Shown one piece after another: positions 37,899-55,286 of a stretch of 64,000 nt of DNA. Positions within the stretch are counted from its first letter, which is position 1, and each line of letters starts with the position of its first letter. The notes beneath the pieces were generated by a model. The model did no database searches and was not told the origin of the DNA. It worked only from the letters and a program-made list of their open reading frames with translations. This stretch comes from an uncultured bacterium (GTDB taxonomy: Bacteria; Myxococcota_A; Bradymonadia; Bradymonadales; Bradymonadaceae): contig CALJNB010000063.1 of assembly GCA_937981985.1 (NCBI GenBank), positions 1 through 64,000 of the forward strand, written 5' to 3'. The position numbers and the translations under genes were made by a program.

Positions 37899-39236
37899 CT
37901 AAGGTGAGAAGTTTTCACATAGATCGAGGACCATGGATCTGGCCTTTAATGTGGTACCCGGGTCGTACCACATACAAATATTACGATTCATATTTGGAGT
38001 TAGGTCCTGACGCCATTCTATATCTTGTAGATCGAATACTCCTTTCCCCCATATGTCGTCCAAAGCTTCAATTTCTTCTGCGTCGAAGAAAGGTTCGTAG
38101 TCGCCATCGTTCCAAGCTCTATAAGCCATGAGTTCAGTGATTTTGTTGGTCGAGTTATCGGAACTATAAATCCAACAGATTTCTTTATTGTCACCTGTTT
38201 CCAGCCAACATAACGCCAGATCAATATTTATCGTCCGCAGATCATCCCAATCTGAAAAAGGTAACTCCGATTCTTCGCCGCACCAGCCTCCGTTAGAACA
38301 AATGTCGCCCGCGCATTGCGTATCCCCATTTAGTCGATTGGTGTAGTCGCATTGCACACAGGCAGAGGAAATATCGTCACAAATATTATAAATTCCAGAG
38401 CACGTGTTAGCATCGCAAAAATTACCGGCGCACTTCTTATTAGCATCACACGTAAGTCCTTCAAGGCAACTTTCATTGTCGGTACATGTTCCGCCCTCGG
38501 TGGCGCGACACTCTTTTGGGCTCTGAGCCGGGTCGCATCGTACATTGGAACCCGCACAATCATCTTTATTTTGACATTGTGATCCCACTCCTCCCACACA
38601 ACGATCGTTTACACACGTCTGGCCTTCTCCGGGGCATTCATCGATTCCGGTGTCGCCATTTTTCGCGTTGCAGTTATCATCTTTTCCGTTACAAATTTCT
38701 TTCGCACCGGGAAAAACATTTTCATCGTTATCATCGCAATCGATTTCGGGTTTTCCACAATCTGTTGAACCTTGCGCACCGTATCCATCTTTATCAAGAT
38801 CGATGCAATTGGCAGCACAGGGAAGGTCTTCCGTACAATTTTCTTTGATCGAGTTTCCGCAAATATCTTTCGCTCGAGGATTGATGTCGGAGTTATTGTC
38901 GTCACAATCTTCGCCGAAACAACCTTCGCCAATACCAAAGCGATCGCCGTCTGAATCGATGCAGTTGTTGGACGGATCGCAGTCTTCGTCTATGCGTCCG
39001 TCACAGTTATTATCCTGTTTGTCACCGCACACTTCTTTCGCGGACGGATTAGTTTCGGCCGACGCGTCATTGCAATCAGTGCCGACGAGGCAGTTCGAAG
39101 ATTTTTGGTCAAATCCATCATTATCCTGATCCACACATGAAGCCTGCGTTTGTCCGCCTTCCTCTTCTGGAAGTTTGGACTCGGCACATCCTAAAAATGA
39201 TAGGGTGACGATAATGAGTAAGTTTAGTTTGTACAT
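37899..39236 (-). CDS. MopuM-repeat lipoprotein with unrecognised C-terminal domain (paralogue 1)
   Basis: A 445-residue exported protein. I place the start at ATG 39236, which has AAGGAGAG upstream; the frame also extends to 39326 without a ribosome site. The signal peptide ends in LSFLGCAES, a likely lipobox. Three Asp/Cys-rich repeats follow, of the form C-x-D-x-D-x-D-G-(Y/F)-G ... DCDD ... P-x-A-x-E-I-C-x-G-x-x-D-N-x-C, the putative metal-binding (MopuM) type expected to bind calcium. Then comes a Cys-rich region and a C-terminal domain of about 110 residues shared with the next two genes (CWL, CWIYSSDNS, ALDDIWGKGVFDL, NMNRNICMWYDPGT). Function unknown; cell-surface display is likely. 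Confidence 0.82.
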   Translation of the reverse strand: MYKLNLLIIVTLSFLGCAESKLPEEEGGQTQASCVDQDNDGFDQKSSNCLVGTDCNDASAETNPSAKEVCGDKQDNNCDGRIDEDCDPSNNCIDSDGDRFGIGEGCFGEDCDDNNSDINPRAKDICGNSIKENCTEDLPCAANCIDLDKDGYGAQGSTDCGKPEIDCDDNDENVFPGAKEICNGKDDNCNAKNGDTGIDECPGEGQTCVNDRCVGGVGSQCQNKDDCAGSNVRCDPAQSPKECRATEGGTCTDNESCLEGLTCDANKKCAGNFCDANTCSGIYNICDDISSACVQCDYTNRLNGDTQCAGDICSNGGWCGEESELPFSDWDDLRTINIDLALCWLETGDNKEICWIYSSDNSTNKITELMAYRAWNDGDYEPFFDAEEIEALDDIWGKGVFDLQDIEWRQDLTPNMNRNICMWYDPGTTLKARSMVLDLCENFSP

Positions 39237-39365
39237 AACCGGCTCTCCTTCAACTACTTGGGGGTCGACGCTATAGAAACGACGATTCACGCGCAATTCA
39301 TCCCGTGTAATTAAGTTGCTCTTCAAACTTGGATTTTGTTCGTCGTTTAGATTTTGGAGGTCTTA

Positions 39366-40865
39366 CTAGGGCGAGTAGTTACTGCAAAGATCAAGTACGA
39401 GCACGTCGTCGATTCCAGGTTGGAACCATAGACAGATTTCTCGGTCCATATTGGGGATCAAGTTCTGTTTCCATTCGACATCTTCAAGGTCAAATATACC
39501 GGCTCCCCAAATTTCATCGAGTGCGCTAATCTGATTCGGCGAATATTCGGATTCATAAGTTCCATTCGACCAGGCTAGACGCGCACGGGCTTTTGTAATC
39601 GTGATCAGCGTATTGTCGGAGGTATAAACCCAGCAAAGTCGTTTTTTACCTTGTCCTATCGAGGTGTTCCAACATACCGCCAGGTCAACGTTAACCGTAC
39701 GTAAATCGGGCCAATTAGAATAAGGAAATGCAGATTCGCCCCCGCACCAGCCACCGGGTGCACATACATTGGAACCACATTGAGCATCGCCAACCGAGCG
39801 GTCTTGAGCATCGCATTGTACACATGCCGACTGGCTTCGATCGCAAAAGCCATTTATCCCGCTACAGGTGTTGGTATCACAAAAACTTCCCACACATTTA
39901 TTACTCAAGGCGCACGTAAGGCCAGTGACGCATTCATGATCGTAGATGCAATACCCATCTTTTTTCGTTCGACATTGTTTCGGTGTGGTGGTGGAATCAC
40001 ATTGATCCTCTGGATCAGAACATTGGTCGTTGTTCTCGCATTCAGATCCGGTAGGCCCTTTACATTCTCCGGAGACACACTCTTGTCCATCACCGAAGCA
40101 TTCGTCGATGCCCTTTCCGTTGCCGGTCTCGTTGCAATTGTCGTCTTTATTGTTGCAGATTTCTTTGGCTCCCGGATGGACCTCGTAATCGGCATCATTG
40201 CAATCTAATTCCGGCTTTGGGCAATCGGCAGCGCCGTTGACTCCGTAACCGTCTCCGTCGGCATCCGCGCAATTTAAAGGGCATGGGAAATCTTGCACGC
40301 AATTTTCTTTAATTCCGTTGCCGCAGATATCTTTAGCTCGCGGATTAATTCTAGGTTCAGTATCATCACAATCGTTTGCAAAACAGCCAGGTCCGACGCC
40401 GAAACGATCGCCATCGTTATCTATACATTCCTTAGAGCAGGGGAGATCCTTTTTGCAATTTTCAGCGATTTTGTTGCCACAAGTATCATCAGCACTTGGG
40501 TTGATCGCTGAATTTGTGTCATCACAATCGGGACCAAGACATTCGGTGCCAATACCGTAACCATCTTCATCGGCGTCAACACATCCGTCAGGAGTGCTGC
40601 AGTCTTCGTCGATCATATTGTTGCAGTTATTATCGACTAGATCGCCGCAGATTTCCTTCGCGATTGGACTAATTGTCGATGATGTATCGTCACAATCATC
40701 GCCGAGTAAGCAATCCGATGATTGGCCATCATACCCATCTTTGTCCTTATCTAAGCAACCACTAGTGATCGGAGTGTTTTTATTGTTATCTTCGGTTGAG
40801 GTTTCACCACAACTCAATAACGGGGTCATCAATAATAGTAATAATGCTAAACTGGATTTGAACAA
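39366..40865 (-). CDS. MopuM-repeat lipoprotein with unrecognised C-terminal domain (paralogue 2)
   Basis: A 499-residue paralogue of its neighbours. The TTG at 40865 is chosen because its leader, AAGGACCCATTTTG, matches base for base most of that of paralogue 3 (AAGGACCGATTTTG); an ATG at 40910 would put the -10 promoter element inside the gene. The signal peptide ends in a good lipobox, PLLSCGE. Four MopuM-type Asp/Cys repeats follow, then the Cys-rich linker (FCDTNTCSG, CVQCDAQDRS) and the common C-terminal domain (CWVYTSDNTLITITK, ALDEIWGAGIFDLEDVEW, NMDREICLWF). Calcium-stabilised surface rods are the expected structure. It has its own strong promoter. Confidence 0.83.
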   Translation of the reverse strand: MFKSSLALLLLLMTPLLSCGETSTEDNNKNTPITSGCLDKDKDGYDGQSSDCLLGDDCDDTSSTISPIAKEICGDLVDNNCNNMIDEDCSTPDGCVDADEDGYGIGTECLGPDCDDTNSAINPSADDTCGNKIAENCKKDLPCSKECIDNDGDRFGVGPGCFANDCDDTEPRINPRAKDICGNGIKENCVQDFPCPLNCADADGDGYGVNGAADCPKPELDCNDADYEVHPGAKEICNNKDDNCNETGNGKGIDECFGDGQECVSGECKGPTGSECENNDQCSDPEDQCDSTTTPKQCRTKKDGYCIYDHECVTGLTCALSNKCVGSFCDTNTCSGINGFCDRSQSACVQCDAQDRSVGDAQCGSNVCAPGGWCGGESAFPYSNWPDLRTVNVDLAVCWNTSIGQGKKRLCWVYTSDNTLITITKARARLAWSNGTYESEYSPNQISALDEIWGAGIFDLEDVEWKQNLIPNMDREICLWFQPGIDDVLVLDLCSNYSP

Positions 40866-40891
40866 AATGGGTCCTTCATACTTTCTCGTAG

Positions 40892-40920
40892 ATTTTATCG
40901 GGTCATCCATTATTTTTCAA
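40892..40920 (-). promoter_or_regulatory. Strong sigma-70-like promoter for MopuM paralogue 2
   Basis: On the minus strand TTGAAA (40920-40915), 17 bases and TAAAAT (40897-40892), each five of six matches to consensus. The start codon at 40865 is 26 bases after the -10. Confidence 0.6.
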
Positions 40921-40961
40921 TTTATCTACGTGGGTCGTTATGTAGAACGGCAGGTGTGAAT

Positions 40962-42455
40962 TTAGGGTGTGAAGTTTTCGCATAAATCTACAACTATCTC
41001 GTCTAGGAAGGTGCCGGGCGAGTACCACATGCACATATTTCGATCCATGTTTGGAGTTAGGTTCTCTCTCCAATCCATATTCTCTACGTCGAAGATGCCT
41101 TTTCCCCAAACGTCGTCCAGTGCGCCGATCTGATTCACGCTGAAATTAGCGTCATAGATTCCCGAATCCCAAGCGTTATAGACCTGGGTTTCAGTGATTG
41201 AGTTAATGGTGTTGTCTGACGTATAGGTCCAACACACACGTTTTACACCGCCAAGTGAGTCAAGCCAGCATTTCGCGATGTCGATATTGATCGTGTAAAC
41301 ATCAGCCCAAGTGAGAAAGGGAAGTGGTGATTCTTTCCCGCAAAATCCGCCTGTTGCACACACTTCGTTTCCACCTCCGGTCATGCATTGCGCATCGCCT
41401 TCGGTTCGATTCGTCCATTCGCATTCAACACAGGCGGATAAGGTTCTGTCGCAAATATTTGTGGCACCGGTACACGTATTCGAATCACAGAAGTTCCCGG
41501 AACACGTGTCACCAGTGCATGCTAATCCCGAGACACATTGATCAACATCGGTACAGCTTCCACCCTCGCCAGAACGACATTCTTTTGGCGACTGAGTGGT
41601 ATCGCAAGTGACGTTGACGCCCACACAATCTCCGGGATCCTCACAAGGAGAGCCTACACCGCCGACACAGCGACCGCTTGCGCAGGCTTGTCCTTCGCCT
41701 GGGCATTCGTCGGTTTCGCCATCGCAGTTATCGTCTTCGCCATTACACGTTTCTTGGGCACCTGGGAAAATTTTCGCATCGGTATCGTCGCAATCGAGCG
41801 CGCTCTCTCGACATCCTGTTGATCCTTCACGGCCGTAACCATCCTTATCGGCGTCGAGACAATCGACCGAGCAGGGGAGATCGGCTTTACAATCTTCGGC
41901 CACATCATTGCCACAGATATCATCCGCGCGGGGATTAATGTTGGGATCTGTATCGTCGCAATCTGGCCCATGACATCCGTCGCCTACACCGTGCTGATCC
42001 CCATCTTCATCTAGACATTCGCCCGTGCATTCGAGGTCTTCTTTGCAATTTTCTGCAATGTTATTGCCGCAAATATCTTGAGCGCCCGGATTAATTGCCG
42101 AATTCGTATCATCGCAATCGGTGCCAAGACATTTTTCTCCAACCCCGTAGCCGTCATCATCAACATCGAGGCAACCGCTTTCATCACCGCAATTTTCATC
42201 AATGATATTATCACAGTCATTATCGATTTTATCTCCGCAGACTTCCTTAACGAACGGGCTGACTGCGGCTGAGTTGTCATTGCAATCATCTCCCGTCAAA
42301 CAGTTCGACGACTTAGCATCATAACCATCGTTATCTTCGTCTACACACCCAGGTGCGATGGGAGTATTATTATCGTCATTATTGCCGTCAGTCGCGCTAT
42401 CGGCGCAGGCGAAAAGCGAAGTTGCAAAGATAAAAAGTAGACTATATCTGATCAA
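40962..42455 (-). CDS. MopuM-repeat lipoprotein with unrecognised C-terminal domain (paralogue 3)
   Basis: A 497-residue paralogue starting with TTG at 42455 behind AAGGA. Lipobox SLFACADS gives an acylated N-terminal Cys. Four MopuM-like repeats (CVDEDNDGYD, CLDVDDDGYGVG, CLDEDGDQHGVG, CLDADKDGYG, each followed by DCDD/DCND and an xCG/CNG-x-x-D-N/E-x-C end) precede a Cys-rich region with PGEGQACASGRCVGGVGSPC, a motif common in surface proteins of this bacterial group. The C-terminal 110 residues (CWTYTSDNTINSITETQ, ALDDVWGKGIFDVENMDW, NMDRNMCMWYSPGT) are shared with paralogues 1 and 2. Function is unknown. Confidence 0.83.
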   Translation of the reverse strand: MIRYSLLFIFATSLFACADSATDGNNDDNNTPIAPGCVDEDNDGYDAKSSNCLTGDDCNDNSAAVSPFVKEVCGDKIDNDCDNIIDENCGDESGCLDVDDDGYGVGEKCLGTDCDDTNSAINPGAQDICGNNIAENCKEDLECTGECLDEDGDQHGVGDGCHGPDCDDTDPNINPRADDICGNDVAEDCKADLPCSVDCLDADKDGYGREGSTGCRESALDCDDTDAKIFPGAQETCNGEDDNCDGETDECPGEGQACASGRCVGGVGSPCEDPGDCVGVNVTCDTTQSPKECRSGEGGSCTDVDQCVSGLACTGDTCSGNFCDSNTCTGATNICDRTLSACVECEWTNRTEGDAQCMTGGGNEVCATGGFCGKESPLPFLTWADVYTINIDIAKCWLDSLGGVKRVCWTYTSDNTINSITETQVYNAWDSGIYDANFSVNQIGALDDVWGKGIFDVENMDWRENLTPNMDRNMCMWYSPGTFLDEIVVDLCENFTP

Positions 42456-43064: not shown

Positions 43065-44453
43065 TCACGAAACAAAAAAAACGTCATCTTTGAAAGATAT
43101 ATCGCCCACCTCTAGCATCCAAAGTAAATGAGATTCTACACTTAATGCAGCGAGAGGGTACAAGTCGGGTAGAAGTTCTGCGTAAATCTGAGGTACGAGG
43201 TCGATCGCAGTGCCATGTCCTTTTTCGTGAATAAGTGCGTATATGTCGGCGTGGCGTTTTTTTCGGTGTGAAATGTAATCACCAAAGTATTTTGAGGGTT
43301 GAACCAGTATCGATCCGTGAGACGGTATCGCGCTTTGAGCGTTCAGCTTGATAAGGCGTTCTAGACTTTCCAGATAGTCACCAACATGTCCGTGGTCCGG
43401 AGCGATAAGAATCGAACCTTTGGACGCGACCATATCTCCGGCAACAATCGTCTTGGTCCGTTCGATATAGAACGCTAAATGATCATCGCTATGACCTGGA
43501 GTTTCAAGGGTACGAAGTCCGCCGAATACGATATTGGAAATTGGATTAATTTTGTATTCAGTTCTCTGTGATAATTTCGGATGGCCATAAACTGGACAAT
43601 TTAAGGTCTTAAGTAAAAGAGGTAGAGCGCCATGATGATCGTTATGATGGTGTGTGAGTAAAACTCCGATGAACTCGAGCCCATCCGTTGTCAGTTCTCC
43701 AATAAACCGCAAAAGTCTTTCTTGCTCGTGTTGATCGGTTCCCCCAGGGTCTACGACTAGAAATTTCTTGTTATCGTCATCTGCAATGATAACGCAATTG
43801 GTTGTCGTCGACGGCGGCAATGTTTGGCTCTTCATCGGTAAAGAAAAGATTCCTTTGTGTAATTTATAGGTGGATAATTCCTCGAGAACCTGGCTTTGTT
43901 CGAAGGATCGGATGGATTTCGAAAAATGTATCAAAAGGGTACGTACCAAGGCGCTTGCTACTGCCTTTCCACTATCTAAAAGTTCAATGCCCTTTTCAAA
44001 TGTGGACCATTCTGCAAACGTCGCTTCTTCGTCGATAAACTTTTTCGGCCGATCTAGAAGTTCTTCGTCCACACTCAATTCAAAAACGCGAACGTATGCT
44101 TTTTGATTATATTGATCGCCGCTTCGCCAATCTGTTATCGGTCGAAATGCAGCATGATCGACTTCTAGCTCTAGTGAGTCCAGAAATTGAATGAAATTTC
44201 TCTCTTTTTTTATTTTTTCGCGGTCGTCAAGATTCGTCCACTGTACAATACCGCTGGTGCTAACAAGAATACCTAACTCCTCAAACAACTCGCGGGCCAT
44301 TGCAATCGTCAAATTTTCGTCATTCTCGATTCCTCCTCCGACGAAAGCGTAGTAGCCGCCCATAAAATTGTGTTCCATACGACGTTTGACCCACAAGAAT
44401 TCGCTTCCGTTTTTTCGCGTCAAAACGCAAACAACGCCGTTGAGATTATTCAT
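43065..44453 (-). CDS. NUDIX hydrolase-metallo-beta-lactamase-fold fusion
   Basis: A 462-residue two-domain protein. The N-terminal 180 residues are a NUDIX hydrolase with an intact box: G-x5-E-x7-REL-x-EE-x-GI within GGGIENDENLTIAMARELFEE-type sequence, so nucleoside diphosphate-X hydrolysis is likely. The C-terminal 270 residues are a metallo-beta-lactamase-fold hydrolase with the zinc motif THHHNDHHG (H-x-H-x-D-H), a later GHSDDH and VAGDMV, resembling LACTB2-like and glyoxalase-II-like proteins. I place the start at ATG 44453, which has GGAG six bases ahead; an ATG at 44486 lacks one. The fusion implies the two reactions act on one substrate, perhaps an acyl-CoA or nucleotide conjugate. 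Confidence 0.88.
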   Translation of the reverse strand: MNNLNGVVCVLTRKNGSEFLWVKRRMEHNFMGGYYAFVGGGIENDENLTIAMARELFEELGILVSTSGIVQWTNLDDREKIKKERNFIQFLDSLELEVDHAAFRPITDWRSGDQYNQKAYVRVFELSVDEELLDRPKKFIDEEATFAEWSTFEKGIELLDSGKAVASALVRTLLIHFSKSIRSFEQSQVLEELSTYKLHKGIFSLPMKSQTLPPSTTTNCVIIADDDNKKFLVVDPGGTDQHEQERLLRFIGELTTDGLEFIGVLLTHHHNDHHGALPLLLKTLNCPVYGHPKLSQRTEYKINPISNIVFGGLRTLETPGHSDDHLAFYIERTKTIVAGDMVASKGSILIAPDHGHVGDYLESLERLIKLNAQSAIPSHGSILVQPSKYFGDYISHRKKRHADIYALIHEKGHGTAIDLVPQIYAELLPDLYPLAALSVESHLLWMLEVGDISFKDDVFFVS

Positions 44454-44559
44454 GTTCAACTCCGAAAAGTACGGCATTGTAGCCAACGCCTAATAGAAAA
44501 TTCCAATCCGTATTATGGATGCCATTTTGACACATGTTTGGGCTATGTACACCTCACTC

Positions 44560-45265: not shown

Positions 45266-46621
45266 TTATTTGCCCACACAAAAGTCCGAAAAAATTCGAT
45301 TGAGAATATCATCGGCACTGACTTCTCCGACGATTTTCCCTAGAGCATCTAAGGCTTCTCTAAGATCTAGCGCGATGATTTCGTTATCTCGTTTTTCCAA
45401 AACAGAATTTCTGGCGAGTTCGCACGACCTGATCGACTGGATCACCGATTCGAGATGGCGAGCTCTACTAATGAGGATACCTTCGCGTTCTGTGAGTTCT
45501 GTGGCGAACTTTTTCAGTAACGCTTCTACTGATTTTAAACCGTTGTTTGAAATTAAGTTCGTTCTCAATACTCTAAATTCTGATTCGAATTCAAAATTGG
45601 GAACAAGATCAATTTTATTAATAATGATGGCAACGCGTTCTGCGTTCTTAAAAAGCGTTCGCATCTCTTCGGAGTTGTTCTTCGGTTCAGACGCGTCGAC
45701 CATCCAAAGAATCACATCCGCCTTCGCAGAAACTTCCTTGCTGCGTTCTACACCTATAGCCTCTACCTTATCACTGGTTTGCCGCAAACCCGCGGTATCG
45801 ATGATATTAATCAACACGCCATCTAGCACGAGACTCTCGCTTAGATAATCTCGAGTCGTTCCGGCAATATCAGTAACGATCGCGCGGTCTTGACTTAATA
45901 AGGCGTTAAATAGCGTGGATTTGCCTGCATTTGGAGGACCGAGAATCGCAACGGAGATACCTTCTCTTTTTCGACGTCCGTGATCAAATCCATCTCTCAA
46001 CGGAACGAGAACATCGAGTACATCAACGATACGTTTCTGAACTTCATCTCGTTCGATCTGATAGACATGTTCTTCGTGGCTGAAGTCGATCGCTGCTTCA
46101 ACCAACATCATCGCTTGCGCTATTTTTTCGCGGCAATTAAGAATCGTTTTTCCAAGTTCACCGTCTAGATGCGATAAAGCCATTTGGTAGGCTTTTTTGC
46201 TATTCGCGTTGATGAGATCAGAGATGGCTTCAGCTTGGGTAAGGTCTAATTTTCCGTTCAAAAACGCGCGTTGGGTGAATTCCCCAGGCGTGGCAATACG
46301 TGCACCATGATTTAAGACGGCATCTAGAACGGACCTTAGTACGATCGTTCCACCGTGGCATTGGAATTCAACAACATCCTCGCCTGTATAACTATTGGGC
46401 CCTTCCATCCAAACAACCAGTGCTTCGTCGAGTAATTCATTCTCGATATTATATATCTTTTGAAGCTGGAGCTTGTGGGAGAAAAAAGAAATGCCGCCGC
46501 GATTGCGGGGCACCATTTTTTCCAAAATCGATTTTGATTTCTTGCCACTCAGGCGAATGATACCGACGCCGCCCCGACCCTCAGCGGTTGCGATTGCGGC
46601 GATGGTATCGAAGGAACTCAT
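45266..46621 (-). CDS. mnmE: tRNA modification GTPase MnmE
   Basis: A 451-residue GTPase which, with MnmG, makes the 5-carboxymethylaminomethyl modification of wobble uridine in certain tRNAs. The N-terminal formyl-THF-binding domain has IAAIATAEGRGGVGIIRLSG, then YTGEDVVEFQCHGG and ATPGEFTQRAFLNGKLDLTQAEA. The G domain has Walker A GPPNAGKSTLFN, DIAGTTRDY, DTAGLRQ and NKID. It ends FCVGK (the usual is FCIGK), whose Cys is functional. It overlaps jag by four bases, the last gene of the rpmH operon. Confidence 0.97.
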   Translation of the reverse strand: MSSFDTIAAIATAEGRGGVGIIRLSGKKSKSILEKMVPRNRGGISFFSHKLQLQKIYNIENELLDEALVVWMEGPNSYTGEDVVEFQCHGGTIVLRSVLDAVLNHGARIATPGEFTQRAFLNGKLDLTQAEAISDLINANSKKAYQMALSHLDGELGKTILNCREKIAQAMMLVEAAIDFSHEEHVYQIERDEVQKRIVDVLDVLVPLRDGFDHGRRKREGISVAILGPPNAGKSTLFNALLSQDRAIVTDIAGTTRDYLSESLVLDGVLINIIDTAGLRQTSDKVEAIGVERSKEVSAKADVILWMVDASEPKNNSEEMRTLFKNAERVAIIINKIDLVPNFEFESEFRVLRTNLISNNGLKSVEALLKKFATELTEREGILISRARHLESVIQSIRSCELARNSVLEKRDNEIIALDLREALDALGKIVGEVSADDILNRIFSDFCVGK

Positions 46622-47556
46622 TTTTCTTTGCGTTGGGTCTCAATTCGAAGTTTACGAAATGCGCCCATTCCATCACTTTCGGTTTTGATACGCTTATCGG
46701 CTTCAAGAACCTGATGAATAGCCTTTCTTTCTGTTGATGAAAATCCGGCGACTGAAAGCGAATCTTTTGCAGCAACGGCAAAGGCAGCGAGTTGTTCAGC
46801 GACTTTTGAGAAGAGTCCACTCTGCTGCTCTCGTCTTCCTTTTTTGTCAATTTCAATTCTAATCGGACTATGGCGGTCGAGTAGGGCAGATTTCATAATT
46901 GTAGTAATGGAATCCAGGGTTCGTGAACCTCTCGAGGTCAACGTTTCCGCGCCATCTCCTGTGATTTCATAGGAGAGGGTATTTCCTTTTATAGAGCCTT
47001 TGGTTTTAACCTCTAGTTCCATTTTCTTGAACACTGTATCGAGCCACTTTCCGCCGTCTTTTAGCATCTTCGGAGTCGGTGTTTCGACTTGTTTAGGATC
47101 TTCTGTTGTTGCCGCTTTTTTCGTTTTTGTCGCGGTTTCTTTCGTAGCAGACTTTGCGCTTACTTTCTTAGAAGCTTTCTTAACGACGGGCTTCTTATCG
47201 GTAGATTTTTTCTTCACGACTTTTTTAACGACTGGCTTCTTTTCGGCTGTAGCTTTCTTTACAACTTTCTTTTTCGTTGCAGCTTTTTTTGGGGCTGCTT
47301 TTTTAGCAGCAGCTTTCTTTGGAGCGGCTTTTTTAGTTGTCTTTTTGACAGCTACCTTTTTTTTGGGAGCAGCTTTCTTCTTTGGTGCAGCTTTTTTTGT
47401 TGCAGCTTTCTTGGGGGCTGCTTTCTTTTTCGCGGCAGCCTTTTTAACGGTGGTTTTCTTAACCGTTTTCTTTACTGCTGGTTTTTTCGCGGCGGCTTTT
47501 TTAGGAGCTGCTTTTTTTGTGGTCGTCTTTTTCTTCGCTGGTTTTTTTGTTGCCAT
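46618..47556 (-). CDS. jag: Jag/KhpB-like RNA-binding protein with long histone-H1-like Lys/Ala/Pro N-terminal tail
   Basis: A 312-residue protein. The first 155-160 residues are a Lys/Ala/Pro/Thr-rich low-complexity tail of KKAAPKKA-type units, very like the C-terminal tail of histone H1 or the AlgP/HctB proteins. The C-terminal 150 residues are Jag (KhpB/EloR): a KH-like region (SRGSRTLDSITTIMKS, where the usual G-x-x-G is reduced to SRG) and an R3H-type end (GFSSTERKAIHQVLE, with R-x-x-x-H, then FRKLRIE). It sits exactly where jag normally is, between yidC and mnmE, and overlaps mnmE by four bases. The tail is expected to bind nucleic acid non-specifically. KH function may be weakened. Confidence 0.85.
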   Translation of the reverse strand: MATKKPAKKKTTTKKAAPKKAAAKKPAVKKTVKKTTVKKAAAKKKAAPKKAATKKAAPKKKAAPKKKVAVKKTTKKAAPKKAAAKKAAPKKAATKKKVVKKATAEKKPVVKKVVKKKSTDKKPVVKKASKKVSAKSATKETATKTKKAATTEDPKQVETPTPKMLKDGGKWLDTVFKKMELEVKTKGSIKGNTLSYEITGDGAETLTSRGSRTLDSITTIMKSALLDRHSPIRIEIDKKGRREQQSGLFSKVAEQLAAFAVAAKDSLSVAGFSSTERKAIHQVLEADKRIKTESDGMGAFRKLRIETQRKEK

Positions 47557-50048: not shown

Positions 50049-50384
50049 AATATTTACTCGTCATCAAAGTCTAGACGCCCAATTTTTAGGGCATCAAAAG
50101 CTCGGCAAATAAACATAAAAGAGACCTCCACGTCAAGGATTTACTGATCTTTCTCGAAGTGTACCCGATTGCGAACGATTTATTTTCATCTCAGACCTTC
50201 ATCTCGATCGGTTTTCTCTGTTCCGTGAGTCGAGGGGCTCCAAAAACGATCGAAATTGGGATTCTCTTTTTTGAGAATTCCATAGATAGAGAATAATTAT
50301 AGTTTGATAAAAATATCGGAGTTTTTAATCCCCGATAAAATTTGATAATAATAGCAGTGGATAAAATTGTTTAAGGTTCTTTGG
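50049..50384. other. Divergent intergenic region between rpmH and the STAND regulator
   Basis: This 336-base gene-free stretch holds the rpmH promoter (separate entry), a short stem GCCC/GGGC (50077-50092) in the rpmH leader, a 9-bp stem with one wobble around TTTTTT (50258-50281), and a regulator-proximal A/T-rich part with four GATAA motifs at 50306, 50334, 50344 and 50360, two of them within identical TTTGATAA octamers. TATCGG and CCGATA form a further 6-bp inverted repeat. A single near-match to a DnaA box (AGTGGATAA) is present but there is no cluster, so I do not call an origin. Confidence 0.5.
50108..50136 (-). promoter_or_regulatory. rpmH: Sigma-70-like promoter of the rpmH operon
   Basis: On the minus strand TTGACG (50136-50131), 17 bases and TTTATT (50113-50108). 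It lies about 60 bases ahead of the rpmH start and is the best candidate for driving the whole operon. Confidence 0.55.
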
Positions 50385-53192
50385 ATGAGACTGGATTCCA
50401 AAACTTATATCGCGCTTCGCCCAGGAGAGCATGTTTCTCGATCAGAACGATCCCAGCTCGTGAGATGGTTTTCTGAATTTTCTGATCAACAGACAGAAAA
50501 GGAATATGTCTTTAGAATGAACCACGACATTGATATTTGGGATCTCATTGACCGTTTTTGCCGGGAATTTCCCAAAACATTGAAAAAGGTTTCAATAGGT
50601 ATCTGTAGGGTATTAGAAAGCAGCGAAATAAACGCCGGTGAACAGGTTCACTTCTCTGACGGGTTATCCAAATCTCGACTTTTTTCGAGATTAGTTGACT
50701 TGGGAGGAGTGTATCTAACCAATAATATCCCTGCCAAAGGTCACAAGTATCGGATTTTAACGCATCGGGGAGAGATTCTCTTAGAGTACCAAATGGCAGC
50801 GCTACGCAGTATTTCGAATGCAAAGAGCGTGAATGTATTGCCACTAAGATTCGAAGAAGAAATGCCTGAACTTTTCCAGCATCTGGTTAACGAAAAAGGA
50901 AGGATTCTAACCGGAGAAGGCGGATTCGGAAAATCATTGAGAGCCGCCAGCCTTGCCGAAGTTTGGCGTGTTCATTTCCAGGGGCGCGTCATAAGGGTTG
51001 ATGGGCGGCGCCATCAAGGATTACGGGGCGTCGTATCTGAGATTGGGAGGTCTCTCGGCGTTGCTGTTTCATCCACCCATCTTCCGAGTTTGAAGTTTTA
51101 CGATAAAGTTCTCATCATTATCCTTCATTGCAGCGAAACGGAGGACGTTATTCGGTGGTTAGAGGGGCAGGATAATGAAGGTGCACGCTATTTTGTGACA
51201 ACGCAGGAGTTGATCGAACACCCCAACGCCACCGAAGTTGGGGCAATTGACGATTATCGGATCCGACTCCTGATTCAATATTATAACTTTGATTTAACTC
51301 AAGACGATCTAGACATCCTTGTCCCTCGCGCGCACGGCAATTTGAGACTCGCGCGGTGGCTTGGCCTACAGAGTAAAAATCTAGGAGTAGAAAACACATT
51401 GAAGCTGGAAGTCGGCTCCTCGATCACGGCCTCAGAAAATATCCACCTTGAGACCATTTGGGCGACTTATTCAGACGAGACAAAGAATATCCTCAAACTC
51501 ATGGATATCTGTACTGGCGGAATGCCGATCGAGATTGCCAAACGTTTGTTTTCTAATGAAGATTGGGTGGATATCGCTGGCGTTAAAGAAGGCCGTTTTC
51601 GCGGGGATTTCTTCCTCCGACTCCATTCCGAATCTCGCGTTCAGCTATTGCCCCACGCTTCAAGATTCTTGAATGAGTTAGAACACTTCTCGCATCGACC
51701 CTATTTTGAGGAATATTGTCGAATTTTTACTCAATGGATCATCGACCATTTAGCTAACATTGATTCGTCCACTGATACGCCCTCTCTCATCGCATTAAGA
51801 GGTGAAGTTCTTAATTTCGGGCCGATAATCGAACATGGCACTGAAGACGAGGTCGTCGTGGTTTCTCGCGCTTTAGAGATTATTTCTCGTCGATTGGGTG
51901 CGTTTGAAAACCGAAGCGCGATGATATCTCGTATCTTGGACCGCTCGCAGAACGAAGCCGCACGACTCTTATACATAGACGAACAAATACATGCTCAAAA
52001 TTTTAATGTTGCGTTAGAACATCTCTACAATGGACCTTTCCTTGAATTTGAAGCCGAGATAGAACGCGTTAAATCCTTAATCTTTCAAAAAAAGAACGAA
52101 TTCGCACTTTCTCTTAGACATGCCGACAAAAGCATCGCGCTGGCATCCAAACAACGCATCGATGAGTGTCGCCTTCGTAAGGCCGAAGTACTCCTTCGAT
52201 TTAAAAAGCTTGATGAAGCCCGAAATTTACTTCTGAGTCTGTTCGAAACGGCGAAAACAGAAAATGTGATAGCGAAGGTTCTTCGCTATCTAGGTGAGTT
52301 GTTAATTGAACGAGACGAATCAGAAAAGGCTAGACCTTACCTCATTAAATCGATTGATTATTATAAAAAAGTTGGAAGCGATCGCGACAGGGTTGAGCCT
52401 CTTTTTGTCTTAGCGTGTTCTGCATTTCATCGAGGAAATATCGAAGAAGGCGAAAGTTGGTTTGAAGACGCAGAAATATCGGCTCATTCGTCGGGTGTGA
52501 ACGCATTTATCGAAATGATTCAGACCGAAAAAGCCTATCATTACGCCGTTATCGGAGAAACTATTAAGGCCCGGGAGCAATTAGCAGCAATTCAGGGTGA
52601 GAAATCTTTGATGAACGAACTTACACGCGTGATCATCGCTTGCGATGATATGAACACCCAGCTTGCTCATTCGATTATTAAAGGCTGGGACTTTGAAACC
52701 TTTGACGCCAACGCGTCCGAATGGGTACTAGCGAGTATTTTGAAAGTTTACGTAGAGGACAAAGTTAGCGGGAATACTCCGCCTCCGGGCTCGATCCATG
52801 TTCAGCAATTTTTCAAAGGCCGGTCGCAATTTTTAGAGAATCACCTTCGGCGCCGACAAAAAAACAACGCACAAAAGAAACTTATCCTATCATCCGACGC
52901 CGCCACGATTGATATTGATGGCCAAAAGATTGATCTCGGCAAACGATTGGCGTTGCGTCGAATTGTTCTGGCCTTGGGCGAACGGGCCGTAGATGGCGGT
53001 CCGCCGGTTTCAGTCGATGAGACATTTGCGGTAGGGTGGATCGGTGAAATCGCTACCGAGAAATCTCGGAATCGAAGGGTCTATTCGGCGATTCATCGTC
53101 TTAAAAAGCTCGGTATTCCGGTCACAAGGGTAAGTGAGGGATATGTTCTGGAGGGCTATCGTGTTGTTTTTACTACGTTTTTGAAATTGTGA
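50385..53192 (+). CDS. STAND-type ATPase/TPR/winged-helix transcriptional regulator
   Basis: A 935-residue regulator. I place the start at ATG 50385 (AAGG eight bases ahead) instead of TTG 50367. Residues 1-150 may be a degenerate cyclase-homology domain (VSIGICRVL, LVDLGGVYLTN) without catalytic residues. An NTPase follows: Walker A GEGGFGKS near 176-183 and a Walker B-like strand KVLIIILHCSE near 240 in which the usual Asp is His. About 490-760 is TPR-like. The last 85 residues (IDIDGQKIDLGKRLALRRI, AVGWIGE, RRVYSAIHRLKKLG, VSEGYVLEGY) look like an OmpR/SARP-type winged helix. Two exported serine protease genes follow directly, so it is a likely regulator of them. Confidence 0.78.
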   Translation: MRLDSKTYIALRPGEHVSRSERSQLVRWFSEFSDQQTEKEYVFRMNHDIDIWDLIDRFCREFPKTLKKVSIGICRVLESSEINAGEQVHFSDGLSKSRLFSRLVDLGGVYLTNNIPAKGHKYRILTHRGEILLEYQMAALRSISNAKSVNVLPLRFEEEMPELFQHLVNEKGRILTGEGGFGKSLRAASLAEVWRVHFQGRVIRVDGRRHQGLRGVVSEIGRSLGVAVSSTHLPSLKFYDKVLIIILHCSETEDVIRWLEGQDNEGARYFVTTQELIEHPNATEVGAIDDYRIRLLIQYYNFDLTQDDLDILVPRAHGNLRLARWLGLQSKNLGVENTLKLEVGSSITASENIHLETIWATYSDETKNILKLMDICTGGMPIEIAKRLFSNEDWVDIAGVKEGRFRGDFFLRLHSESRVQLLPHASRFLNELEHFSHRPYFEEYCRIFTQWIIDHLANIDSSTDTPSLIALRGEVLNFGPIIEHGTEDEVVVVSRALEIISRRLGAFENRSAMISRILDRSQNEAARLLYIDEQIHAQNFNVALEHLYNGPFLEFEAEIERVKSLIFQKKNEFALSLRHADKSIALASKQRIDECRLRKAEVLLRFKKLDEARNLLLSLFETAKTENVIAKVLRYLGELLIERDESEKARPYLIKSIDYYKKVGSDRDRVEPLFVLACSAFHRGNIEEGESWFEDAEISAHSSGVNAFIEMIQTEKAYHYAVIGETIKAREQLAAIQGEKSLMNELTRVIIACDDMNTQLAHSIIKGWDFETFDANASEWVLASILKVYVEDKVSGNTPPPGSIHVQQFFKGRSQFLENHLRRRQKNNAQKKLILSSDAATIDIDGQKIDLGKRLALRRIVLALGERAVDGGPPVSVDETFAVGWIGEIATEKSRNRRVYSAIHRLKKLGIPVTRVSEGYVLEGYRVVFTTFLKL

Positions 53193-53231
53193 CATTCTGT
53201 GACTTGGGAAGTTTGCAAACCTTTACATAAT
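53188..53231 (+). promoter_or_regulatory. Protease-1 promoter with two TGTGAC direct repeats one helical turn apart
   Basis: TGTGAC occurs at 53188-53193 and 53198-53203, exactly 10 bp apart. The second abuts a -35 TTGGGA (53204-53209), followed after 16 bases by -10 CATAAT (53226-53231). The spacer contains a perfect 10-bp palindrome GTTTGCAAAC (53211-53220). The first repeat overlaps the regulator's stop codon. Tandem direct repeats next to the -35 are the usual site of winged-helix OmpR/SARP-type activators. Confidence 0.5.
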
Positions 53232-53260
53232 GCTTAGGTAACTGTTTAAAAGGAGCAAAC

Positions 53261-54175
53261 ATGAGAAACCTATTATTAGTTTTAGGCCTACTTACTACTT
53301 TGAATTGTGTTGGAGAGGCGGGTATTGAAACTCAGCGCACGCAATCCAGTGAAATCGTCGGTGGACAGTCGTTCACTGGCCTTCCAGCAGTGGGTGCTCT
53401 ATTAGTTAACGGTTCTCCGATCTGTACAGGGACGCTCATTGAAAAAAGAAAAGTGCTCATCGCAGCACATTGTTTAGAAGATCTTCGCGGAAACGTAGCC
53501 TTTGGCTTCGGCCCCGACGGGTTCAATCCAACAGAAACAATACCGGTTTCTTCGGCCCGAATGCATCCGGAATACGACACCAATACGATTCAAAACGATA
53601 TCGGCTATGTAACCCTTTCTAGGGATGCTTCGGCTCAGCCGATGGAAGTGTTAACCCAATCGATGGACCAGAGCTGGTCCGGACGAACGATGTTATTTGT
53701 TGGGTACGGCCTTTCTGATGGTGTGAATCGTACCGGAGGCGGATATAAGCGCGCGGTTACAATGACAGTGAACCAGGTCGGAGCTACGCAATTTTCCATC
53801 AACGATCCGGGAAAAAGTCTTTGTAGCGGCGATTCCGGTGGACCCGCATTTTGGCAAGATCCAGTGACTCAAAAACTTAAAGTCGCAGGCGTGACCTCGT
53901 ATGGTGATAGACAATGCCTTGCTTATTCTGTCGATACCCGTGTCGATGCGTACATTTCTTTCTTAGATTTGCAACCTGCCACCTCTGCGCCTGCTGATAA
54001 TAACAGTCCAGATCCTGTAGCTGTTCCTACTGACCCGTGTCAGGGCGAGTCTTACGAAGGAAGATGTTCTGGAAACACCGTTATTTGGTGCGAAGATAAC
54101 GAGGTTAAATCCATTGACTGTCGGAGCTTAACCTGTGGATTTCAGTCATCATGGGGAATCAGTAACTGTCTCTAG
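53261..54175 (+). CDS. Exported trypsin-fold (S1) serine protease with C-terminal Cys-rich domain
   Basis: A 304-residue secreted protease with AAAAGGAG eight bases before the ATG. The signal peptide ends in LTTLNC, possibly a lipobox. A pro-region leads to EIVGG, the S1 zymogen activation site, so cleavage after Glu would release an Ile-Val-Gly-Gly end. The triad is His in IAAHC, Asp in NDIGYVTL and Ser in CSGDSGGP. The residue six before the catalytic Ser (trypsin Asp189) is Ser, so specificity is not tryptic. A Pro-rich linker and a Cys-rich domain of about 48 residues (DPCQGESYEGRC, WCEDNE, SNCL) close the chain. It is paralogous to the next gene. Confidence 0.88.
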   Translation: MRNLLLVLGLLTTLNCVGEAGIETQRTQSSEIVGGQSFTGLPAVGALLVNGSPICTGTLIEKRKVLIAAHCLEDLRGNVAFGFGPDGFNPTETIPVSSARMHPEYDTNTIQNDIGYVTLSRDASAQPMEVLTQSMDQSWSGRTMLFVGYGLSDGVNRTGGGYKRAVTMTVNQVGATQFSINDPGKSLCSGDSGGPAFWQDPVTQKLKVAGVTSYGDRQCLAYSVDTRVDAYISFLDLQPATSAPADNNSPDPVAVPTDPCQGESYEGRCSGNTVIWCEDNEVKSIDCRSLTCGFQSSWGISNCL

Positions 54176-54346
54176 AAAGTAATTAATCCGTTGCGATTAA
54201 TCGTACTCGCCTAATTCGGTCCTCGTTTTAGAGCTAAACCCTACTCGTTATTTATTTCGAACCACATAAAGGGAAAAACTTTGTAGTGTCTTGTTACAGC
54301 CATGACCTTCTTGTTTTTACTCGTTTTTTCTCAAAATTTGTATTTT

Positions 54347-54374
54347 TTGCTTTTGGAAAAGGTAAATCTATATA
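54347..54374 (+). promoter_or_regulatory. Weak promoter candidate for protease 2
   Basis: TTGCTT (54347-54352), 16 bases, TATATA (54369-54374) upstream of the second protease gene. A TTGT pair exactly 10 bp apart (54281 and 54291) lies further upstream and faintly resembles the protease-1 repeats. This 232-base region shows nothing else clear. Confidence 0.3.
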
Positions 54375-54407
54375 TGATGTCGCCAAACAATAAAAAAAGG
54401 AACAAGT

Positions 54408-55286
54408 ATGAAAAATCGATTATTGGTTTTGGCCGTGCTCTTTGCTATGGGCTGCGTTGCCGAGGACGATGTCCAAACTCAGGCTAGTGAAATTGTCGGC
54501 GGACAAGTCTTTACAGGTATTCCCGCAGTTGGTGCCATTATGGTAGACGGCGAGATGGGGTGCACTGGAACTCTGATCGAAAAGCGCAAAGTGCTGACCG
54601 CTGGGCATTGTTTAGATCCAATGATCGGAAAATCGGTACGATTTAATATCGGTCCAATCGCCGCCAGTCCTATCCACAGTATACCCGTTTCAGGGGGAGA
54701 TAAACATGACAGCGAGGATATCGCGTACTTAATACTTGCTAGTGATGCGCCTGTAGCTCCGATGGATGTTTTGAGACGCCCAATGGACGCAAGTTGGGTC
54801 GGACGTACATTATTTTTCGTGGGCTATGGCGATAACGACGGTTGGTTTGGAACCGGTAGTGGTATCAAACGATCGGTGGGGATTGCGATTGATGAAATTA
54901 ACTCAACGCAATTTTCACACACCGTCGGATACAGAAATACGTGTTTCGGCGACTCTGGAGGACCAGCGTTTTGGAAAGACCCGGCTACTAATACGCTTAA
55001 AGTGGTCGGCGTGACCGCTTTTGGAGATGGTACTTGCTCAGAATACGGTGTTGATGCGCGCGTCGATCCCTTTCTTTCTTTCTTAGGATTAACAGGTGCT
55101 CAAGCAGCACCTGCTCCGGCGGCACCGGTTGCTGCTGCACCGGCCGATCCGTGTAACGGAGAGACGTACGTCGGCCGATGTGCCGGTAACACCTTGATTT
55201 GGTGCGAAGCCCAAAAAGTCGAGACGCTCGCATGTACGACTGGTTGTGGCTTTCAAGCCGCCCAAGGTTATAATAACTGTCTTTAG
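54408..55286 (+). CDS. Exported trypsin-fold (S1) serine protease with C-terminal Cys-rich domain (paralogue)
   Basis: A 292-residue paralogue of the upstream protease, with an AAGGA ribosome site. It has a signal peptide ending FAMGCVAE, a short pro-region, EIVGG at the mature N-terminus and a triad of His in LTAGHC, Asp in SEDIAYLIL and Ser in CFGDSGGP. The residue at the S1 pocket base (trypsin 189) is Asn, again not Asp. An Ala/Pro linker (QAAPAPAAPVAAAPA) replaces the Asp/Pro linker of its sister. The C-terminal domain of about 45 residues keeps six Cys and the WCE motif. Preserved triad and pro-region suggest two active enzymes with different specificities. Confidence 0.88.
   Translation: MKNRLLVLAVLFAMGCVAEDDVQTQASEIVGGQVFTGIPAVGAIMVDGEMGCTGTLIEKRKVLTAGHCLDPMIGKSVRFNIGPIAASPIHSIPVSGGDKHDSEDIAYLILASDAPVAPMDVLRRPMDASWVGRTLFFVGYGDNDGWFGTGSGIKRSVGIAIDEINSTQFSHTVGYRNTCFGDSGGPAFWKDPATNTLKVVGVTAFGDGTCSEYGVDARVDPFLSFLGLTGAQAAPAPAAPVAAAPADPCNGETYVGRCAGNTLIWCEAQKVETLACTTGCGFQAAQGYNNCL

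Follow-up and report, generated by a model that had tools for sequence, protein, structure and literature searches.

A probable divergent member of a Myxococcota STAND/TPR regulator family with a C-terminal OmpR-type winged helix, beside a tandem pair of S1 peptidases

A long regulator gene that directly precedes two protease genes raises the question of whether the three act together as a regulated protease module or adjoin by local arrangement. Such a module was proposed in a sequence-only reading of the window, the 64,000-nucleotide stretch of an uncultured Bradymonadaceae contig analysed here. The gene calls and coordinates of that reading, a regulator followed by two tandem S1 proteases, all on the plus strand, are borne out, and the features of the locus are as follows.

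50385..53192, plus strand: regulator P0001, 935 aa, with an N-terminus to which no domain is assigned, a degenerate STAND-type P-loop core, TPR and a C-terminal OmpR-type winged helix
50913..50936, plus strand: Walker A motif GEGGFGKS, residues 183-190 in 941-aa numbering
51123..51131, plus strand: Walker B position, Leu-His-Cys (253-255), Asp in 78/78 relatives
52266..52616, plus strand: TPR / MalT-like TPR region, residues 634-750
52860..53168, plus strand: C-terminal winged helix, residues 832-934, recurrent in Myxococcota regulators
53204..53231, plus strand: promoter-like TTGGGA-16-CATAAT in the regulator-S1a gap, weak, with the regional count of such sites at shuffle expectation
53261..54175, plus strand: S1a (P0002), 304 aa, probable lipoprotein with a trypsin domain and a C-terminal Cys-rich module
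54408..55286, plus strand: S1b (P0003), 292 aa, paralogue of S1a, probable lipoprotein with a trypsin domain and a C-terminal Cys-rich module

The regulator starts at ATG 50385, with AAGG 8 nt upstream, and stops at 53192; an alternative in-frame TTG at 50367 would add six residues, giving the 941-aa numbering used for Walker A as against 935 aa from the ATG, and has no AAGG-like site upstream. The gap between regulator and S1a is 68 bp, and that between S1a and S1b is 232 bp.

The earlier guess that the regulator ends in a Trans_reg_C-type domain is confirmed by structure prediction and by matches to solved OmpR-type structures. An AlphaFold (AF2) model of the winged helix, computed from an alignment of 80 copies, has a mean pLDDT of 90.4 and OmpR-type topology, and its top PDB matches are almost all DNA-binding domains of the OmpR/PhoB type (CadC, BaeR, ArlR, AfsR, CovR, AdeR, ToxR and PhoP); the beta strands, three helices and C-terminal hairpin of this fold are found in the model and the structure matches. 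PF00486 (Trans_reg_C) has no sequence match in the regulator, no Pfam model searched names its C-terminal domain, and the literature search returned papers on AfsR, MalT and conflict systems, none of which describes the C-terminal family. On the basis of the model, a DNA-binding output role is predicted for the domain.

When 96 relatives were searched with P0001, nearly all matches ended at the last ~100 residues, the best match to these residues reaching 38% identity (E 1.7e-13). Of these 96, 24 have significant matches to the domain, which closes long proteins with variable N-terminal parts (STAND NTPase with TPR, kinase with NTPase, or cyclase-like by eye). The matches of the search with P0001 are independent of the winged-helix profile of the neighbourhood and species scans, which includes the window protein. 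About 110 Myxococcota proteins, STAND-TPR regulators for the most part, end in this domain, and a domain-profile scan of 84,980 species yielded 131 confirmed relatives. The best 80 of these 131, which are the loci named here, come from Polyangium, Sorangium, Minicystis, Labilithrix, Sandaracinaceae, Kofleriaceae and many MAGs; the domain is C-terminal in practically all of these best 80, and a GxxxxGK[ST] P-loop stands in the same frame in about 70% of them, some of the others being cut by contig ends. A full-length relative of the regulator was found neither in the class (57 genomes) nor in the 84,980 species, the contig scan with P0001 gave 39 pattern matches and 0 relatives, and an alignment of 32 divergent domains held no stretch conserved enough for scanning. 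Most likely, the regulator belongs, as a divergent orphan, to a Myxococcota STAND/TPR family with a C-terminal OmpR-type winged helix, and the best reading is that it kept the family domain order. Within this family, single chains at L062:6240-9755 and L139:6299-10327 carry a protein kinase domain together with a STAND NTPase and the winged helix at the C-terminus, and in L051, L056 and L057 (family f4) two adjacent same-strand genes each end in the winged-helix domain.

The core of the protein is degenerate. The Walker A motif first noticed in the sequence is indeed present; for the reported change of the Walker B Asp to His, the absence of the Asp holds, and the replacing residue is His254 or Leu253 according to gap placement. 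In an alignment with 78 relatives, chosen by the Walker A pattern GxxxxGK[ST], the Arg of the TSR motif (92% of relatives) is Gln280 in the regulator, the Pro of the GxP motif (97%) is absent, and the Arg of the N-terminal GR motif (96%) is Phe162. A profile of the 78 relatives' NTPase domains, with P0001 left out, gives P0001 19.5 bits, compared with 3.6 for the best of 200 shuffles and 77 for the lowest-scoring profile member, and the match is weak and limited to residues 164-237 around Walker A. No Pfam NTPase family exceeds its cut-off in the regulator, which has only a hint of AAA_22. Because a Walker B acidic residue and GxP were not found, we describe the protein as 'STAND-derived' and not as canonical STAND; as such, the original picture of a TPR-containing regulator with OmpR/Trans_reg_C-type output is supported by profile, TPR and structure matches.

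The sequence-only reading also held that the core may bind nucleotide without hydrolysing it. Judged from the sequence, NTP hydrolysis has probably been lost with the Walker B Asp, and this part of the claim gains support, whereas even binding is uncertain because GxP is lost, the motif that, in the crystallised STAND protein PH0952, contacts the nucleotide (PMC6468293). With Asp of Walker B, Arg of TSR and Pro of GxP all gone, nucleotide binding at most, or a passive core, is probable. Loss of hydrolysis need not destroy the switch, since AfsR is activated by ATP binding, not hydrolysis (PMC10936776), and a passage of the same paper cites MalT as activated in this way too.

The TPR-like region likewise stands as first described, with matches to the MalT-like TPR profile (PF17874, E 7.4e-7) and to TPR_12 (E 8e-6), both below their Pfam cut-offs. 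A cyclase-homology fold suggested for the first 150 residues finds no support: Pfam has no match there, and hhalign of the N-terminus against the presumed cyclase-like N-termini of relatives gives a probability of 0.2%. The single-sequence AlphaFold model of the whole regulator (pLDDT 36.9) gives no structural basis for the N-terminus or the core, which counts against the explanation that we favour below. The loss of several otherwise near-invariant NTPase residues and the lack of any orthologue found could also suit a decaying gene, heading for loss with a broken NTPase and no present function. This is very improbable, given that the frame stays open over 935 codons, that GC overall and at third positions resembles that of the surrounding genes (GC3 0.44 vs 0.45-0.46) and that the winged helix is well preserved.

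Several known systems share parts of this architecture. AfsR, a large SARP of Streptomyces, has a STAND core, TPR and an OmpR-type winged helix as the regulator does, its structure 8hvr_I ranks near the top of the solved structures that match the C-terminal domain, and it is the only DNA-binding regulator matched by the A1 profile, weakly (E 0.47). However, the winged helix of AfsR is N-terminal and followed by a BTA domain, whereas that of the regulator is C-terminal, no BTAD match was found in the regulator and the Walker B Asp is missing. MalT, a STAND-TPR activator of E. coli, has the same order of core, TPR and C-terminal DNA-binding domain, and the MalT-like TPR profile is the regulator's best Pfam match. 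MalT ends in a LuxR/GerE-type HTH, whereas the regulator has no GerE match and an OmpR-type winged helix in its place, and lacks GxP and Walker B. The iSTAND NTPases of MoxR-vWA conflict systems are inactive STAND proteins, as the regulator is predicted to be, and operate with MoxR and vWA partners (PMC7159879), none of which was found among the scanned neighbours of the regulator; the regulator also differs from them in carrying a predicted DNA-binding output domain. The anti-phage Avs (AVAST) system was rejected, as PADLOC gave no match to the regulator, and the weak Avs1b matches fall on the trypsin domain only.

The two proteases are less unusual. PF00089 trypsin domains score far above the cut-off (E 1e-22 and 1.5e-17), His, Asp and Ser are all present in both, and the IVGG start is preceded in both by Glu, not by a basic residue. 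The trypsin fold of the first description is thus retained, and 'exported' is refined: because the Cys closing each signal peptide does not vary among six homologues, S1a and S1b are probably lipoproteins, the lipobox -1 residue of S1a being an unusual Asn. Both end in a Cys-rich module, of which most of the six homologues have one or two copies. In trypsins, the position six before the catalytic Ser governs primary specificity; S1a has Ser there and S1b has Asn, so a trypsin-like Arg/Lys preference would not be expected. The two copies are only about 50% identical, which makes their tandem duplication old. In the host's family, one other genome has a protease match at E 1e-10 or better, and sequence comparison places the close relatives of the pair mostly in another family of the class (f3). 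The S1 lipoproteins there reach 47% identity and share the invariant signal-peptide Cys, the IVGG start, the triad and mostly the C-terminal Cys-rich module; several have two such modules, whereas S1a and S1b have one each. One relative of the same class carries about eight S1 protease genes in tandem across 25 kb (G052:C15:94280-119550).

Whether regulator and proteases travel together was assessed against a base rate of 1.49 trypsin-profile genes per Mb in 55 genomes of the class; this rate puts expected counts on the high side because it includes HtrA-type Pfam trypsin matches, whereas the S1 profile of the neighbourhood search was narrower. Around 33 regulators of relatives (474 kb), no S1 protease was found (0.71 expected), and the neighbourhoods of the 80 named loci, the best of the 131 confirmed relatives, held two in 1.21 Mb (1.8 expected), both counts lying near the chance rate. 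The second expectation uses the rate of the window's class; other Myxococcota may have a higher one, and two finds would then be even less surprising. Contig ends truncate several of the neighbourhoods, and the two sets share some loci and include some near-copies. Both proteases found are trypsins with a different C-terminal part: at L140, the gene lies about 3 kb upstream of the regulator, and at L171:3-2399 (Myxococcaceae MAG), a same-strand trypsin gene of another subtype comes directly after a gene of the regulator family. Conversely, the regulator domain was found near protease homologues at 0 of about 32 distinct loci, 11 of them with wide flanks. No other genome has matches to the regulator and protease queries close together on one contig, the triplet was found in no other genome examined, and in one other, incomplete genome of the genus neither full-length gene was found. 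Because the gene types occur together nowhere else examined, the locus most likely reflects a local neighbourhood rather than a new protease module; regulators regularly without proteases nearby were what the sequence-only reading had named as refuting its module, which thus is not borne out.

A lineage-specific circuit, in which a signal read by the TPR region would set two surface proteases to work, for example in predation or nutrient scavenging, deserves separate weighing. Bacterial regulators commonly control neighbouring genes. The regulator and S1a lie on the same strand, 68 bp apart, and these counts are compatible with a private circuit in the window's lineage, the other genome of the genus being incomplete. 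Moreover, the next gene is a same-strand S1 protease in 1 of ~107 regulators with downstream sequence (L171), compared with 0.08 expected; this pairing, the co-orientation of the three genes and the short first gap all count against a chance neighbourhood. Predation is described for some Myxococcota such as Bradymonadales (PMC7460792). However, the adjacency is conserved nowhere examined, S1b has its own AT-rich upstream region of 232 bp, and promoter-like sites are at shuffle level. No 9-mer is common to the stretches upstream of all three genes, that upstream of S1a sharing none with either of the other two, and an operator shared by the three was rejected. We consider local control of the protease pair unlikely, and the earlier idea that the regulator controls their export is not supported, as any effect would be on transcription.

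The genomic setting is that of a fragmented draft (4.09 Mb, 146 contigs, 85% complete). An rpmH-rnpA-yidD-yidC-jag-mnmE operon to the left of the regulator is syntenic in 9 relatives, whereas nothing to the right of rpmH recurs in these 9 except one short partial LysR match, which places the regulator and proteases in a variable region. An origin-of-replication setting, with the regulator where dnaA often adjoins rpmH, was rejected, as dnaA lies on a different contig; the window has about as many DnaA-box-like sites as chance would give (18 vs 12.3 expected, reached by 7/100 shuffles), and GC skew takes no clear turn near the regulator and rpmH. Elsewhere on the minus strand, the gene at the jag position (46618-47556) fuses a Lys/Ala-rich histone H1-like (HC2) tail of ~150 residues to an R3H domain, 43065-44486 joins a NUDIX domain and a metallo-beta-lactamase domain with a winged-helix tail in one frame, and 37899-42455 encodes three tandem secreted proteins of 475-514 aa, both scanned ones with repeated MopE-type metal-binding motifs.

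Taken together, we find it probable that the regulator is a divergent, orphan MalT/AfsR-like protein that has probably lost hydrolysis, and that the proteases adjoin it by chance or local history with no conserved module; the two, S1 peptidases of lipoprotein type that arose by tandem duplication, lie beside the regulator by local arrangement. With the domain identity established, we infer a switch in which the TPR region would sense a ligand or partner, the P-loop core, binding nucleotide at most or serving as a passive scaffold, would keep the protein inhibited, and lifting this inhibition would free the C-terminal domain to bind DNA and act on RNA polymerase. That this hydrolysis-free, STAND-derived regulator is a dedicated local switch for the surface lipoprotein pair, within an uncatalogued Myxococcota family with OmpR-type output, seems to us quite improbable. 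The gene triplet by itself matters little, and the regulator family is the more useful outcome. As a family member that naturally lacks Walker B, GxP and the TSR Arg, the regulator also offers a way to test which steps the STAND switch can do without. Because no current Pfam model covers the C-terminal domain, many family members probably carry no annotation beyond that of a TPR protein or an ATPase, and recognising the domain would mark many long Myxococcota proteins as likely transcription regulators.
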